Origin: Rhodopirellula sp. P2
Lineage (GTDB): Bacteria; Planctomycetota; Planctomycetia; Pirellulales; Pirellulaceae
DNA: 64,000 nt
Assembly (NCBI RefSeq): GCF_028768465.1
Contig: NZ_CP118225.1
Span: 4,011,001-4,075,000, forward strand
Direction of reading: 5' to 3'
The notes beneath the pieces are model-generated. The model did not search any database, was not told the DNA's origin, and was given only the letters and a program-made list of their open reading frames with translations. Below are positions 48,632 through 54,855 of this stretch, piece after piece. Within the stretch, counting starts at the first letter, position 1, and each line of letters starts with the position of its first letter. The translations under genes were made by a program, and so were the position numbers.

Positions 48632-48720
48632 GCTCCCGTCAGGCGGAGACTCGCTGAGAACGATCGCAGCGAGGTCGTTCGCTTGTCCTTTTCTCTTCTT
48701 TGCACCGTCAGGTGATCGCA

Positions 48721-50166
48721 ATGACCGATTCTTTGGCCAGCCGGGGTGGACGCTGCGCGTCCGCCGACCGTCGCTCTTTTCTGAAACGTTCGACGCTCGC
48801 TGCAGCGTCCGTGATGGTTGTCTCCCCCCATGTTTTGGGTGGTCCCGGCAAGACACCTCCCAGCGATCAATTTCGATTTGCCCAGATCGGTGTGGGTGGG
48901 CAGGGGGCCCGCGACGTTCGCCGAATGATCCATGCCGGTGGAACCCCCGTGGCGCTCTGCGATGTGGATGTGCAAAGAGCTGGCAAAACGTTCTGTCAGC
49001 ACCCTGATGTCGAACGGTTCACGGACTATCGAGTCATGCTCGAAGAGTTCGACAAAGAATTCGATGCGGTCGTCATCAGCACGCCGGACCACACGCATGC
49101 GGCCATCGGTTTGGCAGCGATGCGGCATGGCAAGCACGTCTACTTGCAATGTCCGATGGCTCGCACGTTTGATGAAGTCCGAAGGTTGCAAGCTGCCGCC
49201 AAGGATTCCGGATTGGCAGTTCAAGTTGGTAACCAGGGTCACTCCAGCCTTCATATGCGAGCCTTCGAGGATTTCATTCAGCGCGGTGTGCTGGGTGAGA
49301 TCCAGTCGGTTCACTGTTGGACAGACCGCCCCGAATGGCCGCAAGGAATGGCGACGACTCCGGTTTCGACTGCGCCCCCCATTTCGCTGGACTGGGACCT
49401 GTGGCTCGGCCCGGTCGCGGATCGTCCGTTCTGCAAAGGCTACCTGCCCGTGGCCTGGCGCGGCTGGTGGGACTTCGGCACCGGTGCGCTCGGCGACATG
49501 GGGTGCCATTTGCTCGATCCCGCCTTCACGGCTCTGCGGCTGAAATTGCCGCGAACAGTCACGGCCGATTGTGAAACGGCGGCGTCGATTTCTTATCCGG
49601 TTTGGTCCCAAATCCAAATGGAATTTGAGGCCACCGAAGTCTGCCCCAAAGGATTGAAGTTGACCTGGGACGACGGAGGCAAACAGCCCGAGACGCCGAC
49701 CATCATCGCCGATGAAGCCAGTGGCGAGCCAGGTTACTCGGCCGGCGGCAGCGGCTGCATGATTGTGGGTGACAAGATGACGCTCGTCGGATCGACGCTG
49801 GCGAATGAGCCCGATCAAATGCCACAGATCATCGCCGTCGCCAGCGAAGACGACAACGAACTCGCCGACGCACGGCAAGCTGCCCGGGCACGAGTGGAGC
49901 AACTGTCTGCCGAAGGCAGCGAGACATCGAGGTCTCACTATGAACGCTGGATCCAAGCCGCCCGCGAAGGCAAGTCGGATTCATTGGCCAGCGATCTGCA
50001 AACGGCCGGCACCATGACACAGGCGTCCCTGCTGGGCTGCATCGCGACCCGTTTTCCTGGTCAGGCACTCCGTTGGGATGAAGCCAAGCAGCAATTCGCT
50101 GGCTCCGGCGAGGCCAATTCATTCCTGAGCTTCGAACCTCGCGAAGGCCATTCCTACGAAGCCTGA
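48721..50166 (+). CDS. Tat-exported Gfo/Idh/MocA-family oxidoreductase
   Basis: The product is 481 residues from the ATG at 48721, placing a twin-arginine signal (ADRRSFLKRSTL) near residue 22. The Rossmann fold follows (FAQIGVGGQGARDVRRMI, about 60-77). Tat export suggests that NAD(P) is bound before transport. The usual E-K-P motif, whose Lys acts in catalysis, reads KHVYLQCPMART (K replaced by Cys, about residue 145). The C-terminal domain has WDFGTGALGDMGCHLLD, typical of the planctomycete clade. Sugar or inositol dehydrogenation is the family role, but with the Lys absent the activity is doubtful. Confidence 0.85.
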   Translation: MTDSLASRGGRCASADRRSFLKRSTLAAASVMVVSPHVLGGPGKTPPSDQFRFAQIGVGGQGARDVRRMIHAGGTPVALCDVDVQRAGKTFCQHPDVERFTDYRVMLEEFDKEFDAVVISTPDHTHAAIGLAAMRHGKHVYLQCPMARTFDEVRRLQAAAKDSGLAVQVGNQGHSSLHMRAFEDFIQRGVLGEIQSVHCWTDRPEWPQGMATTPVSTAPPISLDWDLWLGPVADRPFCKGYLPVAWRGWWDFGTGALGDMGCHLLDPAFTALRLKLPRTVTADCETAASISYPVWSQIQMEFEATEVCPKGLKLTWDDGGKQPETPTIIADEASGEPGYSAGGSGCMIVGDKMTLVGSTLANEPDQMPQIIAVASEDDNELADARQAARARVEQLSAEGSETSRSHYERWIQAAREGKSDSLASDLQTAGTMTQASLLGCIATRFPGQALRWDEAKQQFAGSGEANSFLSFEPREGHSYEA

Positions 50167-50368: not shown

Positions 50369-53300
50369 TTACGACTTCTTTTTCAGCCCCATCAGATACT
50401 CGACCATATCCACCAGCCCCTGTTGGTCGGTGGTGTGGTGCAAGTTCTCGGGCATGATCGACTTCTCGCTCTTTTTAACGTCAGCGATTTCGTCTTGGTT
50501 CAATTCCAAGTCGATGGCTTCCGCGGTTCGCAACACAAGTGTGTCGTCGGTCTCCGAGACCAGCACGCCGTTGACGACGCGGCCATCCTCGGTCAACGCG
50601 ATCATGTTCTCGTAGTTGTGACTGATGCCAGCACTGGGGGCCAGAATCGATGTGAACATGGCTTCGCGAGAAAGCTTGGACCCGATCTCGGACAGGTCTG
50701 GGCCGACCTGTTTCCCAAACCCATCGACCAGGTGACAGTTCGCACAGGTCGCGACGCCACGGAAGATGGTCTGTCCTCTTTTTGCATCGCCGCTGAGACG
50801 CACCAGTTCATCCAGTGGAGGAAGCGGAGCGTTGTCTGCTGCGGCGGGTTGAGGCAGCAACTTCTTGGCTCGTTTGGCAATCGCCTGGTTGGCGTTGCGG
50901 CCAAGCAGTCCGCCCGCCAGCAAATGCGTGTCCGCCGGAAGGTGATTCTGCTGAGCCATCTTCAGCAACTCTGTTGCGCCTCCGTTGGACTTTGCCATTG
51001 CACGGACCGCGGCGCTTCGCAAACCGTAATCCATCTCCTCGTCACCGGCGGTCTGGGCCAGCAATCCGATTGCGCGTCCGTTGCCCAGTGAGCCGAGCAG
51101 CGAAAGGATTCGGCCTCGTTGGCCGGGATCGTACTTCGAATCCTTCGCCAAGATGCCGACGAAACGGTTCCAGCCGTCCTGGCGTTTCAACAGCAAACGC
51201 AAGGCGGAAAGCGACAGGTTGTCATCGCCGTCTCGGAGCATCGCGGCAATCAGATCTTCATCCATGTCCATGATCTGAAACTGCTCAACCAGTTCGACAA
51301 AGTCGGGCTTGTCGGCGCGACTGCGAATGTAATCTGTGATCGCTGCTTGGGTCTTGGGGAACTTCGCCGGATCGAAATCGGGCATTCGCGTGACCGTGCG
51401 GACGAGGACTTGAGGGGCAACGACAAGCTCACTGTTTTCATCGGGCAACAACTGACGCAGCACCACTCCACGCACGGCATCGGAGTGGTATTCCAGTGAC
51501 CGGAAGTAACGTTTGGCTTCGTCGCTTGGTATGCCACTGGCTAGCAGTTCAACCATGTTGGCCGCCGCTTCATCCGTACGCAGACGCCAGACAAGGTCGC
51601 GTCCCGCGGGCGTGTTCCAGTTGCCGTGGTTGGCTTTCATCCAAGCCGCGTAGCAATCGCCCGCTCGCAAGTCGCTGGCGATCCCCAACGCCTCCAGCAT
51701 CCAACGGTCGCTGCCGTCGTACTGGATCGCAAGCTTCGCCCAAACCGCTGGCATCGCGTCGGACTCATCGAATCGCAAGGCAACGGCCAGTTCACGGCGG
51801 ACCGCGGGCGAGGGATCGTTGGCAGCATCGCCACAAATTTCTGCGGTTGAAAGACCGAGTTGTTTGCACAGCCGAATCGCCGTGCATCGGATGTCAGAGT
51901 TGTCGTCGGCCAAGGCTTGCTCGACGTAGAATTGCCCGCGACCTTCGATCTTGCCGAGCAACCACAAAGCACGAGCCCGGTAGCGAGGGTTTTCATTTTC
52001 GTACAGCGAATGCAAAGCGGGCTCGGCGGCTTTGCCCATCGCGTGCAGGGTTTGCCAGGCGAGGTAGCGAGCCGAGCGGTTGGGGCTTTGGAGTGCTTCG
52101 ATGGCACCTTCGACGGTCGTCCAGTCAAACTTCGGCACGGAGTATTTCACGCCAGGCGGGGCCACGCGAAACAGGCGTCCGCGGTCGCTGTCCTTTTGGT
52201 GGTGGCCGCCGACACCGGGGTCGTACCAATCCGTCACGAAAAGCGATCCATCGGGAGCCACACAAACATCCGCGGGACGAAACCAATTGTCCGTCGTGCC
52301 GGTGATCAAGGGTTCGATCGTCGCTGAGTATCCCGCGCCATCGGCCATCATCGGATAGGCTCGCACCACGTTGGGGCCCGGGTCGCAGTGGATGACCTCG
52401 TCCCAGAAACGTTCTGGCAACAAGCGTCCTTCGTACAGGCAGATTCCGCTGGGAGAGCCCGCTCCGGTTTGCAACACGTTGGGAACCACGCCGGGGTCAT
52501 TCAGGTGCCAGTGTTGAAGCGGGATTTCATCTTCCAACGTGATCCGGTCAGCTCGCCAAGAGGCCCCGGTTTGTTCGTCTTTGTAACCGTAGTTGCCTTG
52601 CTCCATCACGAAGTTGATTCGTGTGCCGCGGTTGCCATCGTCATCGTTGTCGCTCTGCCACAAGGCACCGAAGGAGTCGACTGTGGTTTCCCAGTTGTTA
52701 CGAAAGTTATGAGCCAGGACTTCGAAATGGGAACCATCCAGGTCACATCGAAATGGCATCCCCCCGTACAGCGGCTTGCCGTTGTCGACGACCGCCCGGC
52801 CGTGGATGTCGATCACCGTTTCGCCATCGGCATCTTTGACCTGCGTCCCGGTGTTGCCGAAGTTCCAGTACAGTTTGCCGTCGTCGCCGAAGAGAAACGA
52901 GTGGGCCGAGTGGTCGTGTTGAGGTTGGCCCGTTTCGGTGAACATCGCGACCTTGGAATCGGGGATGTCGTCGCCGTCGGTGTCGGTGAACTTCCACACG
53001 GTTGGCGAAGCCGACACGATGACCTCGTTGCCGAGCACGCAGATCCCCATCGCCGAGTCGATGTCACGGCCTTGGTAGTAGGTGTGAACGCGGTCGAGTT
53101 TTCCGTCGCCGGTGGTGTCTTCCAAGATCAAGATCCGATCGCCTTCGGGACGCGAGCCTTGGTTGCGGCGGTAGTTCATGACATCGCATACCCAAACCCG
53201 TCCGCGATGATCGATGTCGAGGTTGGTCAGGCTGGAGAGGTCCGGCTCGCTGCCCATCAGCGTGACTTCCAAGCCCTCGGCGACTTCCAGTCCCGCCACG

Positions 53301-53833
53301 GCGTGTTCCGGCGAACGTTGGTCCTCCGCTGCTTTGCCGTCAACTTCATTGAGATTCTTCGGCGGCGATCCAGCGTAAACAGCAAACCGGACGCTGGTGT
53401 GGTTGCCGCCCTGCTGGTTGGTGCCGCCACTTTCCAGAGCGCCCGTCACGGTCAGGCGGTCGTAACCAGGTGGGACATCCAATTCGATGATGCTGGGAGC
53501 GTGCGTTCCAATCGCGGCCTTTCCCGCGAGCTGATTTTCAACCAACACCGGGCCACCCGAGCAATTCGCATTCTTCCGGACGTTGCCGTAACCGGCTCGC
53601 GCAGTCACCCAACCGTGTTCGACTAAATCCAGTGTTCCCTTGGCACCATGCAGCGTCGGTGCCAACCAAGCCACATGGTCACACGAGTAGTCGTCGTTGC
53701 CTTCGCTGACCACCAAGAACAGTTTTTGACGCGCGACTTCATCGACCTCGGTCAGGTCCACTTCGATCGCCACTCGATGTCCTTCCGTCGCGGTGGTCAC
53801 CAACGGGCTGGCGAACAACCACTCAGCGGGCAC
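50369..53833 (-). CDS. PVC-type heme-binding CxxCH protein (NPCBM + dehydrogenase-like propeller + HEAT + cytochrome c)
   Basis: The product is 1,154 residues if started at GTG 53833. An NPCBM-like carbohydrate-binding domain covers about 40-155 (GTHAPSIIELDVPPGYDRLT). A GSDH-like beta-propeller follows (about 175-590; LTNLDIDHRGRVWVCDVMNY, VAPDGSLFVTDWYDPGVGG). HEAT-like repeats cover about 600-980. A cytochrome c-like domain has one heme site CANCHLVDGFGKQVGPDL (Cys about 1029). There is no signal peptide and no convincing ribosome site at this start, although heme attachment needs export. The open frame continues upstream through the A9 run at the end of the ThuA gene, so it may be the second half of a frameshift-made ThuA fusion. 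The inferred role is periplasmic sugar oxidation. Confidence 0.88.
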   Translation of the reverse strand: MPAEWLFASPLVTTATEGHRVAIEVDLTEVDEVARQKLFLVVSEGNDDYSCDHVAWLAPTLHGAKGTLDLVEHGWVTARAGYGNVRKNANCSGGPVLVENQLAGKAAIGTHAPSIIELDVPPGYDRLTVTGALESGGTNQQGGNHTSVRFAVYAGSPPKNLNEVDGKAAEDQRSPEHAVAGLEVAEGLEVTLMGSEPDLSSLTNLDIDHRGRVWVCDVMNYRRNQGSRPEGDRILILEDTTGDGKLDRVHTYYQGRDIDSAMGICVLGNEVIVSASPTVWKFTDTDGDDIPDSKVAMFTETGQPQHDHSAHSFLFGDDGKLYWNFGNTGTQVKDADGETVIDIHGRAVVDNGKPLYGGMPFRCDLDGSHFEVLAHNFRNNWETTVDSFGALWQSDNDDDGNRGTRINFVMEQGNYGYKDEQTGASWRADRITLEDEIPLQHWHLNDPGVVPNVLQTGAGSPSGICLYEGRLLPERFWDEVIHCDPGPNVVRAYPMMADGAGYSATIEPLITGTTDNWFRPADVCVAPDGSLFVTDWYDPGVGGHHQKDSDRGRLFRVAPPGVKYSVPKFDWTTVEGAIEALQSPNRSARYLAWQTLHAMGKAAEPALHSLYENENPRYRARALWLLGKIEGRGQFYVEQALADDNSDIRCTAIRLCKQLGLSTAEICGDAANDPSPAVRRELAVALRFDESDAMPAVWAKLAIQYDGSDRWMLEALGIASDLRAGDCYAAWMKANHGNWNTPAGRDLVWRLRTDEAAANMVELLASGIPSDEAKRYFRSLEYHSDAVRGVVLRQLLPDENSELVVAPQVLVRTVTRMPDFDPAKFPKTQAAITDYIRSRADKPDFVELVEQFQIMDMDEDLIAAMLRDGDDNLSLSALRLLLKRQDGWNRFVGILAKDSKYDPGQRGRILSLLGSLGNGRAIGLLAQTAGDEEMDYGLRSAAVRAMAKSNGGATELLKMAQQNHLPADTHLLAGGLLGRNANQAIAKRAKKLLPQPAAADNAPLPPLDELVRLSGDAKRGQTIFRGVATCANCHLVDGFGKQVGPDLSEIGSKLSREAMFTSILAPSAGISHNYENMIALTEDGRVVNGVLVSETDDTLVLRTAEAIDLELNQDEIADVKKSEKSIMPENLHHTTDQQGLVDMVEYLMGLKKKS

Positions 53834-53877
53834 CGCTGACGTCGAACCGTTCAGCGCTTTTTTTTTGCGTCGTCCTT
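53824..53877 (-). promoter_or_regulatory. Candidate -1 frameshift site linking ThuA and the heme protein
   Basis: On the minus strand the ThuA gene reads GCA AAA AAA AAG CGC TGA (T9 run on plus at 53858-53866), which contains the heptamer A_AAA_AAG. AAGGA (plus 53873-53877) lies nine bases upstream like the stimulatory Shine-Dalgarno of E. coli dnaX. CAGCGG-TGC-CCGCTG (plus 53824-53838) forms a 6-bp hairpin downstream. Slipping back one base gives KKKALNGSTSAVPAEWLF, in frame with the heme protein. Confidence 0.5.
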
Positions 53878-54855
53878 GGACGTCTCGCCGCTGACCGGAA
53901 TGTCGAACTTTTTCGCGATCGACTCCAGGTCGAAGTCCTTGGGCGGTTCATAGTCTTGGTCAGCCAACAGTTGTTCTGCTGAGATCGGTTGAAGCGAGTT
54001 GGCTTCCTGGGTTGGATCGTCACCCGCGGTCCAACGAATCGCGTTGGTCACCAAGCGACGCAATGGAACATGGGACCAATTCCAGTGATGGTGCCCGCCG
54101 GTGAAGCCAAAGCTACGGCCGCCGAATTCAGGTTCATAGGCCCAGGCAACGGTCTGCGGTTCGCCAGCCGCGACTGATTTTCGAACGTGAGGGTTGCCGC
54201 TGTGAGCGCCATCTTCGCGCCGCATGGTCGACTCTGGTGCGACGGATTGCAAAATGGGGGTCAGCTTGCCTTGTTCCGAAAATCGCAAGTGGAAGTACCA
54301 CTCGTCATTGGTTGCAAAGGGTTCGACCTTGTGAGTGATCGGGTGCTCAGGCAGCGAATCAAACTTCGCGATCCAGTGCGGGTTGACGCTGTAATGGATT
54401 TCAAAGTGCCCACCCAACAGTTCGACCATGTCATCTCCGGATTCGCCCGGCTTCATTTCAGTGGCGTAGTGCAAGCACACCAATCCGCCGCCACGCTTCA
54501 AGAGAGTTCGCAATTCATCGCGATGATCAAACGCGACATGGCGATCTTGCCCGTCGCTGTACAGGACCACGCTGTCGGCGGATTCCACCTTGGAAGCGTC
54601 CTTGGGCCAACCACGCACGACTTCGGTTTGAAGGTTTGGATTGGCTTCCTGCAACGACTGTTCGAGAACTTTCAGCCCAGCGTAGTGCTCGTGATCACCG
54701 TAGCCGTGGCTGGGGGCACCAGCGATGAGCAAGATTTTTTTCTCGGCGCCGTCCGCGGATCTTGCTGTGGCAGCCAAGGAGTTCCAACCAATAACGACGC
54801 ACGCGAGAGCGGCGATCCATGACCACGAGGGGGCCGAGAAGACATCATTTTTCAT
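53851..54855 (-). CDS. ThuA-domain protein (trehalose-utilisation type), exported
   Basis: The product is 334 residues. A signal peptide (about 12-34, ending ATARSADG) is followed by the ThuA/class I glutamine amidotransferase-like fold: ILLIAGAPSHGYGDHEHYAG (about 42-61), then KRGGGLVCLHYATE and GGRSFGFTGGHHHWNW, which complete the family pattern. ThuA is thought to act on 3-keto-sugars. In the ordinary reading the protein ends DDAKKKR*, at an A9 run; see the frameshift site. ThuA and PVC heme proteins are regular neighbours or fusions in planctomycetes, as far as I recall. Confidence 0.88.
   Translation of the reverse strand: MKNDVFSAPSWSWIAALACVVIGWNSLAATARSADGAEKKILLIAGAPSHGYGDHEHYAGLKVLEQSLQEANPNLQTEVVRGWPKDASKVESADSVVLYSDGQDRHVAFDHRDELRTLLKRGGGLVCLHYATEMKPGESGDDMVELLGGHFEIHYSVNPHWIAKFDSLPEHPITHKVEPFATNDEWYFHLRFSEQGKLTPILQSVAPESTMRREDGAHSGNPHVRKSVAAGEPQTVAWAYEPEFGGRSFGFTGGHHHWNWSHVPLRRLVTNAIRWTAGDDPTQEANSLQPISAEQLLADQDYEPPKDFDLESIAKKFDIPVSGETSKDDAKKKR

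Follow-up and report, generated by a model that had tools for sequence, protein, structure and literature searches.

A recurring run of nine to eleven A's between ThuA and a PVC-type heme-binding module, a probable slippage site in Rhodopirellula and its relatives

In Rhodopirellula sp. P2, a gene for a ThuA-domain protein ends at a run of nine A's, and a long PVC-type heme-binding module lies open in the -1 frame beyond it. We think it probable that slippage is programmed at this run, most likely by RNA polymerase, so that one gene would provide two products. A transcript whose A count matches the template would encode ThuA alone, and one with an extra A would encode a fusion in which ThuA is followed by NPCBM, a propeller, HEAT repeats and a cytochrome c-type domain. 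In species where the open reading frame (ORF) is continuous across a run of A9-A11, slippage would yield ThuA alone instead. We also favor, if with less assurance, a wider reading: runs of about ten A's would form a family-wide two-product switch that sets the ratio of free ThuA to ThuA-NPCBM-propeller (with or without the cytochrome). The switch would have been gained and lost many times, its default would have been swapped repeatedly with both products kept, and the same code would serve dnaX and perhaps a polyketide-synthase-like gene.

The junction in the window and in its genus

The window is the 64,000-nt stretch of the P2 genome that was analyzed (the genome is G000; other G-numbers denote the compared genomes). 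The features at issue are:

53851..54855, minus strand: ThuA-domain protein (PF06283), 334 aa, with an N-terminal hydrophobic, signal-like segment (Pfam, hydropathy)
53853-53851, minus strand: stop codon of ThuA, TGA, beginning 4 nt past the A9 run
53858..53866, minus strand: A9 run followed by G (T9 on the plus strand), the candidate slippage site (sequence)
53823..53839, minus strand: GC-rich stem-loop of 7 pairs downstream of the run, unconserved among run-bearing loci
50369..53857, minus strand: -1 frame with the PVC-type heme-binding module, entered from ThuA if one A is added

The ThuA protein, whose PF06283 match is above cut-off (74.4 bits vs. 33.4), ends in ...DAKKKR*, encoded by ...GCA AAA AAA AAG CGC TGA. 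An open -1 frame extends from 90 nt upstream of the ThuA stop to 50369. It encodes NPCBM (PF08305), a DUF7133/PVC-type N-terminal domain (PF23500, TIGR02604), HEAT repeats and a CxxCH heme domain (TIGR02603), the CxxCH itself being present; both PVC-type models are above cut-off (TIGR02604, 294.7 vs. 122.2 bits; TIGR02603, 110.1 vs. 68.15). The original prediction, a programmed -1 join of the two frames at the run, thus had the coordinates and the open frame right, and its fusion of about 1,500 residues agrees with the roughly 1,495 aa computed for one added A. The in-frame A_AAA_AAG, the AAGGA upstream and the GC-rich hairpin that it described are all found in the window.

It had also argued that ThuA carries an export signal and that the heme frame lacks one, and hydropathy agrees with this: the best 15-residue mean is 1.94 at the ThuA N-terminus and 0.96 over the initial 100 residues downstream in the -1 frame (export signals are judged here by such means). 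The first usual start in the -1 frame, GTG at 53833, which the original prediction had called poor, is 24 nt past the run and reads GCG in the closest relative (G009).

Beyond the module, at 48700-50166 on the plus strand, lies an ORF convergent with the ThuA-heme gene. It is Gfo/Idh/MocA-like by eye and has a twin-arginine-like start, RRSFLKRS; such a neighbor might be the marker of a sugar-oxidation cluster. Judging from domain names only, the enzyme role is likely sugar oxidation outside the cytoplasm.

In the genus set of 13 genomes, five relatives (G003, G004, G006, G010, and G011) have a single ORF of 1521-1560 aa; the A run is absent at their junction, where three of them read AAG AAG AAG. 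G009, which shares 90% identity with the window in ThuA and 94% in the heme portion, is split at the corresponding position and in the same -1 relation, by A10 then C in place of A9 then G. An intact relative with 8 or 10 A's had been expected if the split were an error; the intact close relatives are run-free, and the A10-bearing G009 is split too. Between G000 and G009, dN/dS is 0.156 in ThuA and 0.084 in the -1 frame (1,161 codons), where the comparison shows a single codon gap. Just before the run, the end of ThuA varies (dN/dS 0.94, 26 codons).

Runs, frames and stops across the family

A total of 241 genomes of the family, which we take to be Pirellulaceae, were searched twice for ThuA loci. 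From among the matches listed we took the loci with an open frame shorter than 700 aa and 60 further fused loci. Nine loci from outside the family and a tenth (G052) were added, duplicates of one gene being counted once, for a total of 190 ThuA loci. Since this sample is not random, the counts below are not population frequencies. The module is fused in frame to ThuA in 122 of these 190 loci, adjacent and out of frame (split) in 15, and not adjacent in 53. The last class includes G198, which has a distant heme protein whose match lies more than 900 nt beyond the ThuA end, and G241b, which has no run and whose heme match, 23% identical, starts about 700 nt away. It also includes three loci followed by little DNA (G066, 881 nt; G215b, 248 nt; G170, 405 nt), in which a module may therefore lie further on.

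A run of A9-A10 stands at the junction in all 15 out-of-frame loci examined, 13 of which need a -1 shift; the other two, G085 and G188, are at +1 and would have to lose one A or gain two. In G188 the frame changes again near residue 282 and the assembly is fragmented, so these shifts possibly reflect errors. Runs of A9-A11 are present at the junction in 15 of the 122 fused loci examined, and a run of at least nine in none of the 53 loci without an adjacent module. The longest A run in the 137 pairs of ThuA and module is shorter than 7 in 104, 7-8 in 3 and at least 9 in 30; because of this gap, gradual neutral growth of the run is not what one would expect. The 30 tracts are A9 in 8 loci, A10 in 21 and A11 in one. 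As 107 of the 137 pairs have no run of at least nine, the run is best described as an optional device. The run-bearing loci examined belong to ten genera and two families, the second family being represented by one genome (G039). What recurs among them is the run of at least nine A's and not the AAG heptamer, which the original prediction had put forward as the site: A_AAA_AAG is in frame in 14 of the 30 and is absent from G009.

The frames and stops around the runs are arranged alike from either starting point. In the 13 split loci at -1, the templated frame always stops 1-44 nt past the run, and one added A opens the module. In all 15 fused loci with a run, the module is read in the templated frame, and one added A leads to a stop within 4-21 nt (median 6). 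In run-free fused linkers, the frame that one added A would reach has a stop within 21 nt for 27% of positions, and for 23 of 102 when the most A-rich 9-mer is taken. In 20,000 random draws of 15, none had all stops within 21 nt and two had a median as low; this control ignores kinship, and the 15 loci span seven genera. The opposite direction of shift is less constrained in the fused loci with a run, the stops coming at 2-107 nt. Because of this placement of frames and stops, the gain of one base would give a second product from either layout.

In a tree of ThuA from 175 loci (quick method), the run state changes 15 times, and the fused or split state six times among run-bearing loci. Run-bearing congeners differ in layout in three genera (g86, g19, and g88), and closely related species have different default frames (G232 vs. 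G238; G030 vs. G084 and G086; G260 vs. G258 and G259). A sign test of 'split' with 'run', corrected for the tree, found 4-5 independent pairs for the association and none against; as its median p is 0.0625, the corrected association is not significant on its own. The first 175 loci underlie the tree and both the stop-distance and folding controls; none of the 15 added later (13 without a module and two fused) has a run of at least nine.

The content of the joined product varies. CxxCH lies within the joined frame in four of the 15 split loci (G199, G025, G030, and G085), and in eight others the joined frame ends at 786-815 residues; for G000, G009 and the broken G188 the CxxCH region lies beyond the sequence pieces read in the survey. 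In five relatives the joined frame ends at about 800 residues and a separate ORF comes next, with a signal-like start by eye, that matches the heme part. The constant core is ThuA, NPCBM and the propeller; the heme domain is not always in the module. The ThuA frame extends upstream in six split relatives (G193, G195, G192, G085, G260, and G030), so that the joined product would be larger still. By eye, the extension looks like another domain, DUF1080-like.

The ThuA signal can be judged in seven of the 15 split loci, the window among them, where hydropathy at the N-terminus is at least 1.7; in the other eight the mechanically chosen start ran upstream, in six into another domain. In the downstream frame, 14 of the 15 loci have no mean above 1.28 within the initial 100 residues, and G232 has 1.63. 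With no export signal seen in the module itself, fusion to ThuA is its only evident route of export.

Polymerase, ribosome and other explanations

One extra A in the transcript and a -1 slip of the ribosome yield the identical frame. Programmed ribosomal frameshifting of the E. coli dnaX type, by which the original prediction had explained the fusion, would find in the window an in-frame heptamer, an AAGGA and a hairpin. More generally, A_AAA_AAA is in frame in all 30 runs, so that a ribosomal -1 slip is possible and would also explain why 13 of the 15 split loci are at -1. In E. coli dnaX, A6G suffices for the ribosomal shift; here the runs have a floor of nine. The AAG heptamer is found in fewer than half of them, and two loci need +1. 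Nor is a Shine-Dalgarno (SD)-like motif enriched, being present at 3 of the 30 run-bearing loci vs. 33 of 102 controls, and there is no excess of downstream folding (mean z -0.40 vs. -0.27); the controls for both were placed where the ThuA match ends and not at an A run. The window and G009 do have an SD-like motif, and their downstream fold is mildly stable (z -1.1 and -1.5). As a family feature, however, such stimulators had to be rejected, the motif and the fold being unconserved over the 30 loci.

All seven genomes looked at, G000 included, have tRNA-Lys(CTT) beside tRNA-Lys(TTT) (ARAGORN). The available part of a review ties the presence of two lysine tRNAs to polymerase slippage in Thermus, and tRNA-Lys(CTT) to poor ribosomal slipping on AAG (PMC5009743). 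We regard the ribosomal explanation as unlikely, if still a serious one. The polymerase is favored because the runs are never shorter than nine, because they use all three codon phases (5, 14, and 11 of 30), because the stimulators are unconserved and because tRNA-Lys(CTT) is present. RNA-polymerase slippage is thus likelier than the dnaX-type shift. Of the programmed join originally proposed, the slip at the run is upheld by the comparison of genomes and the E. coli-like mechanism is not; transcriptional slippage, which had been listed as an alternative, is the better fit.

A different kind of objection is that no second product is needed. A lysine-rich linker may have gained an A run by chance, and slippage would then have made later changes of frame harmless. 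The variability of the ThuA end just before the run is in line with this, as are the old frameshifts at homopolymers that are reportedly rescued in endosymbionts, according to the accessible part of that literature. Such neutral tolerance does not predict run lengths that are bimodal, stops 4-21 nt downstream in every one of the 15 fused loci with a run, or the lack of a run in all 53 loci without the module, and we hold it to be distinctly improbable. A homopolymer tract could also serve phase variation, replication slippage toggling the fusion between cells. The different defaults in the three sets of close species named above would suit it, as would a swap of default in dnaX that accompanies A9 vs. 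A10. The tract is nearly fixed, however, at 9-11 in 30 loci (one genome per species), and the flips of frame stem at least partly from the flanks by eye, G232 and G238 both having A10. Toggling is therefore a very unlikely account of these runs.

That the module is an ordinary second gene, started on its own or through coupling to the ThuA stop, was another alternative raised at the outset. Candidate starts exist: the GTG in G000, a TTG common to G000 and G009, and a CTG overlapping the TGA stop. The GTG is unconserved, however, and in five split genomes (G005, G007, G025, G192, and G193) not one ATG, GTG or TTG occurs in the first 161-225 nt of the module frame, a stretch that falls within a conserved domain. 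No export signal was seen in the downstream frame, and the runs would be left unexplained, as would the 15 fused loci that bear one; two independent genes are highly improbable. Sequence error or a recent frameshift mutation would be natural suspicions at a long homopolymer, which is error-prone, the more so as most pairs have no such run. Both are hardly credible here. G009 is equally split with a different tract, the junctions are out of frame at A9-A10 in 13 further genomes, two other long ORFs stay in frame across their A10 runs in G000 and in G009, and dN/dS is low across the -1 frame. Programmed slippage by RNA polymerase is the reading that we retain. The sequences show the anatomy, the recurring run, how the frames relate, where the stops fall and the low dN/dS; from these we infer that slippage occurs, that it is transcriptional in nature and that both products matter.

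Other A runs and known systems

Runs of nine or more A's or T's are few in the 7.29-Mb G000 genome: there are 16 (18 overlapping matches). This rarity speaks against a chance occurrence at the junction, as does the A10 of G009 at the matching site in the same frame relation. Four are sense A runs within frames longer than 200 aa, namely in dnaX, in a polyketide-synthase-like ORF, in a 485-aa frame and in the ThuA-heme gene. In dnaX, each of the 13 genus genomes carries A9-A10 at about residue 383-395 of the match (A10 in G000, whose dnaX locus is G000:C1:3005832-3007742). In 11 of the 13 the run is in frame, and either alternative frame meets a stop within 5-30 nt. G006 and G012 have A9, which would make the short gamma form the default and leave tau in need of one extra A.

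The polyketide-synthase-like ORF (more than 1,336 aa) has its A10 at G000:C1:774954-774963, after the phosphopantetheine-site region; the copy in G009:C44 has the same tract length and, by Pfam, AT, PP-binding, KR and DH domains. One added A leads to a stop after 21 nt and one lost A after 8 nt, and the run is possibly another two-product site. Near G000:C1 6371543, an A9 lies where a 100-aa frame ending in ...KKKQPK* is overlapped by the 485-aa frame at the start of the latter, a layout that resembles mobile elements.

The sequence signs by which transcriptional slippage is recognized are found at the ThuA-heme gene: a run of at least nine at the change of frame, a joined product that matches single-ORF homologues, and the same layout in several genomes. 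Recoding of this kind is already known; as far as our searches tell, the new elements are the gene concerned, its spread over genera and the recurrent swap of the default. The accessible parts of the literature on frameshifting or slippage in Rhodopirellula and Planctomycetes yielded no report of ThuA-heme slippage, and the available portion of one study whose set has two planctomycete genomes makes no mention of Rhodopirellula, Pirellula, trehalose or heme (PMC3711429). Functional cases of bacterial slippage, in the portions of the literature at hand, are mostly mobile elements, genes of secretion systems and dnaX. If the present reading is true, a chromosomal and probably metabolic gene would use slippage in ten genera and two families. 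The species pairs with a reversed default would offer a comparative test of whether selection keeps up the supply of both products. Annotation may also present such genes as two separate genes or as broken ones, and the export route of the module would then be missed.

Among known systems, the E. coli dnaX gene shares with the window A_AAA_AAG, a hairpin and, upstream, an SD-like motif. It differs from the run-bearing loci as a group, none of the three elements being conserved over the 30 and tRNA-Lys(CTT) being present. In Shigella mxiE and in IS elements, according to the available part of the source, the longer product likewise requires slippage on a run of at least nine, whereas the ThuA-heme gene belongs neither to a mobile element nor to a secretion system (PMC1088944). 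In Citrobacter rodentium tssM1 (A11) and Yersinia pseudotuberculosis tssM3, slippage has been proven experimentally in two species, as the accessible part of the report has it (PMC4256274). There, the short product of tssM1 is the default, an extra A gives the full length, and a relative has the opposite default (PMC4256274). The evidence in those two genes is experimental, whereas the ThuA-heme case in ten genera is known from sequence. Finally, slippage of transcription on A9 is established for Thermus thermophilus dnaX, as the portions of the sources at hand state (PMC1088944; PMC5009743). The likeness lies in A9-A10 within coding sequence, nearby stops in other frames and two products, predicted ones in the ThuA-heme case, with dnaX in the genus of the window itself carrying such a run. 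The difference lies in the gene, which here is ThuA with the PVC heme module, and in the default, which in the window is the short product.
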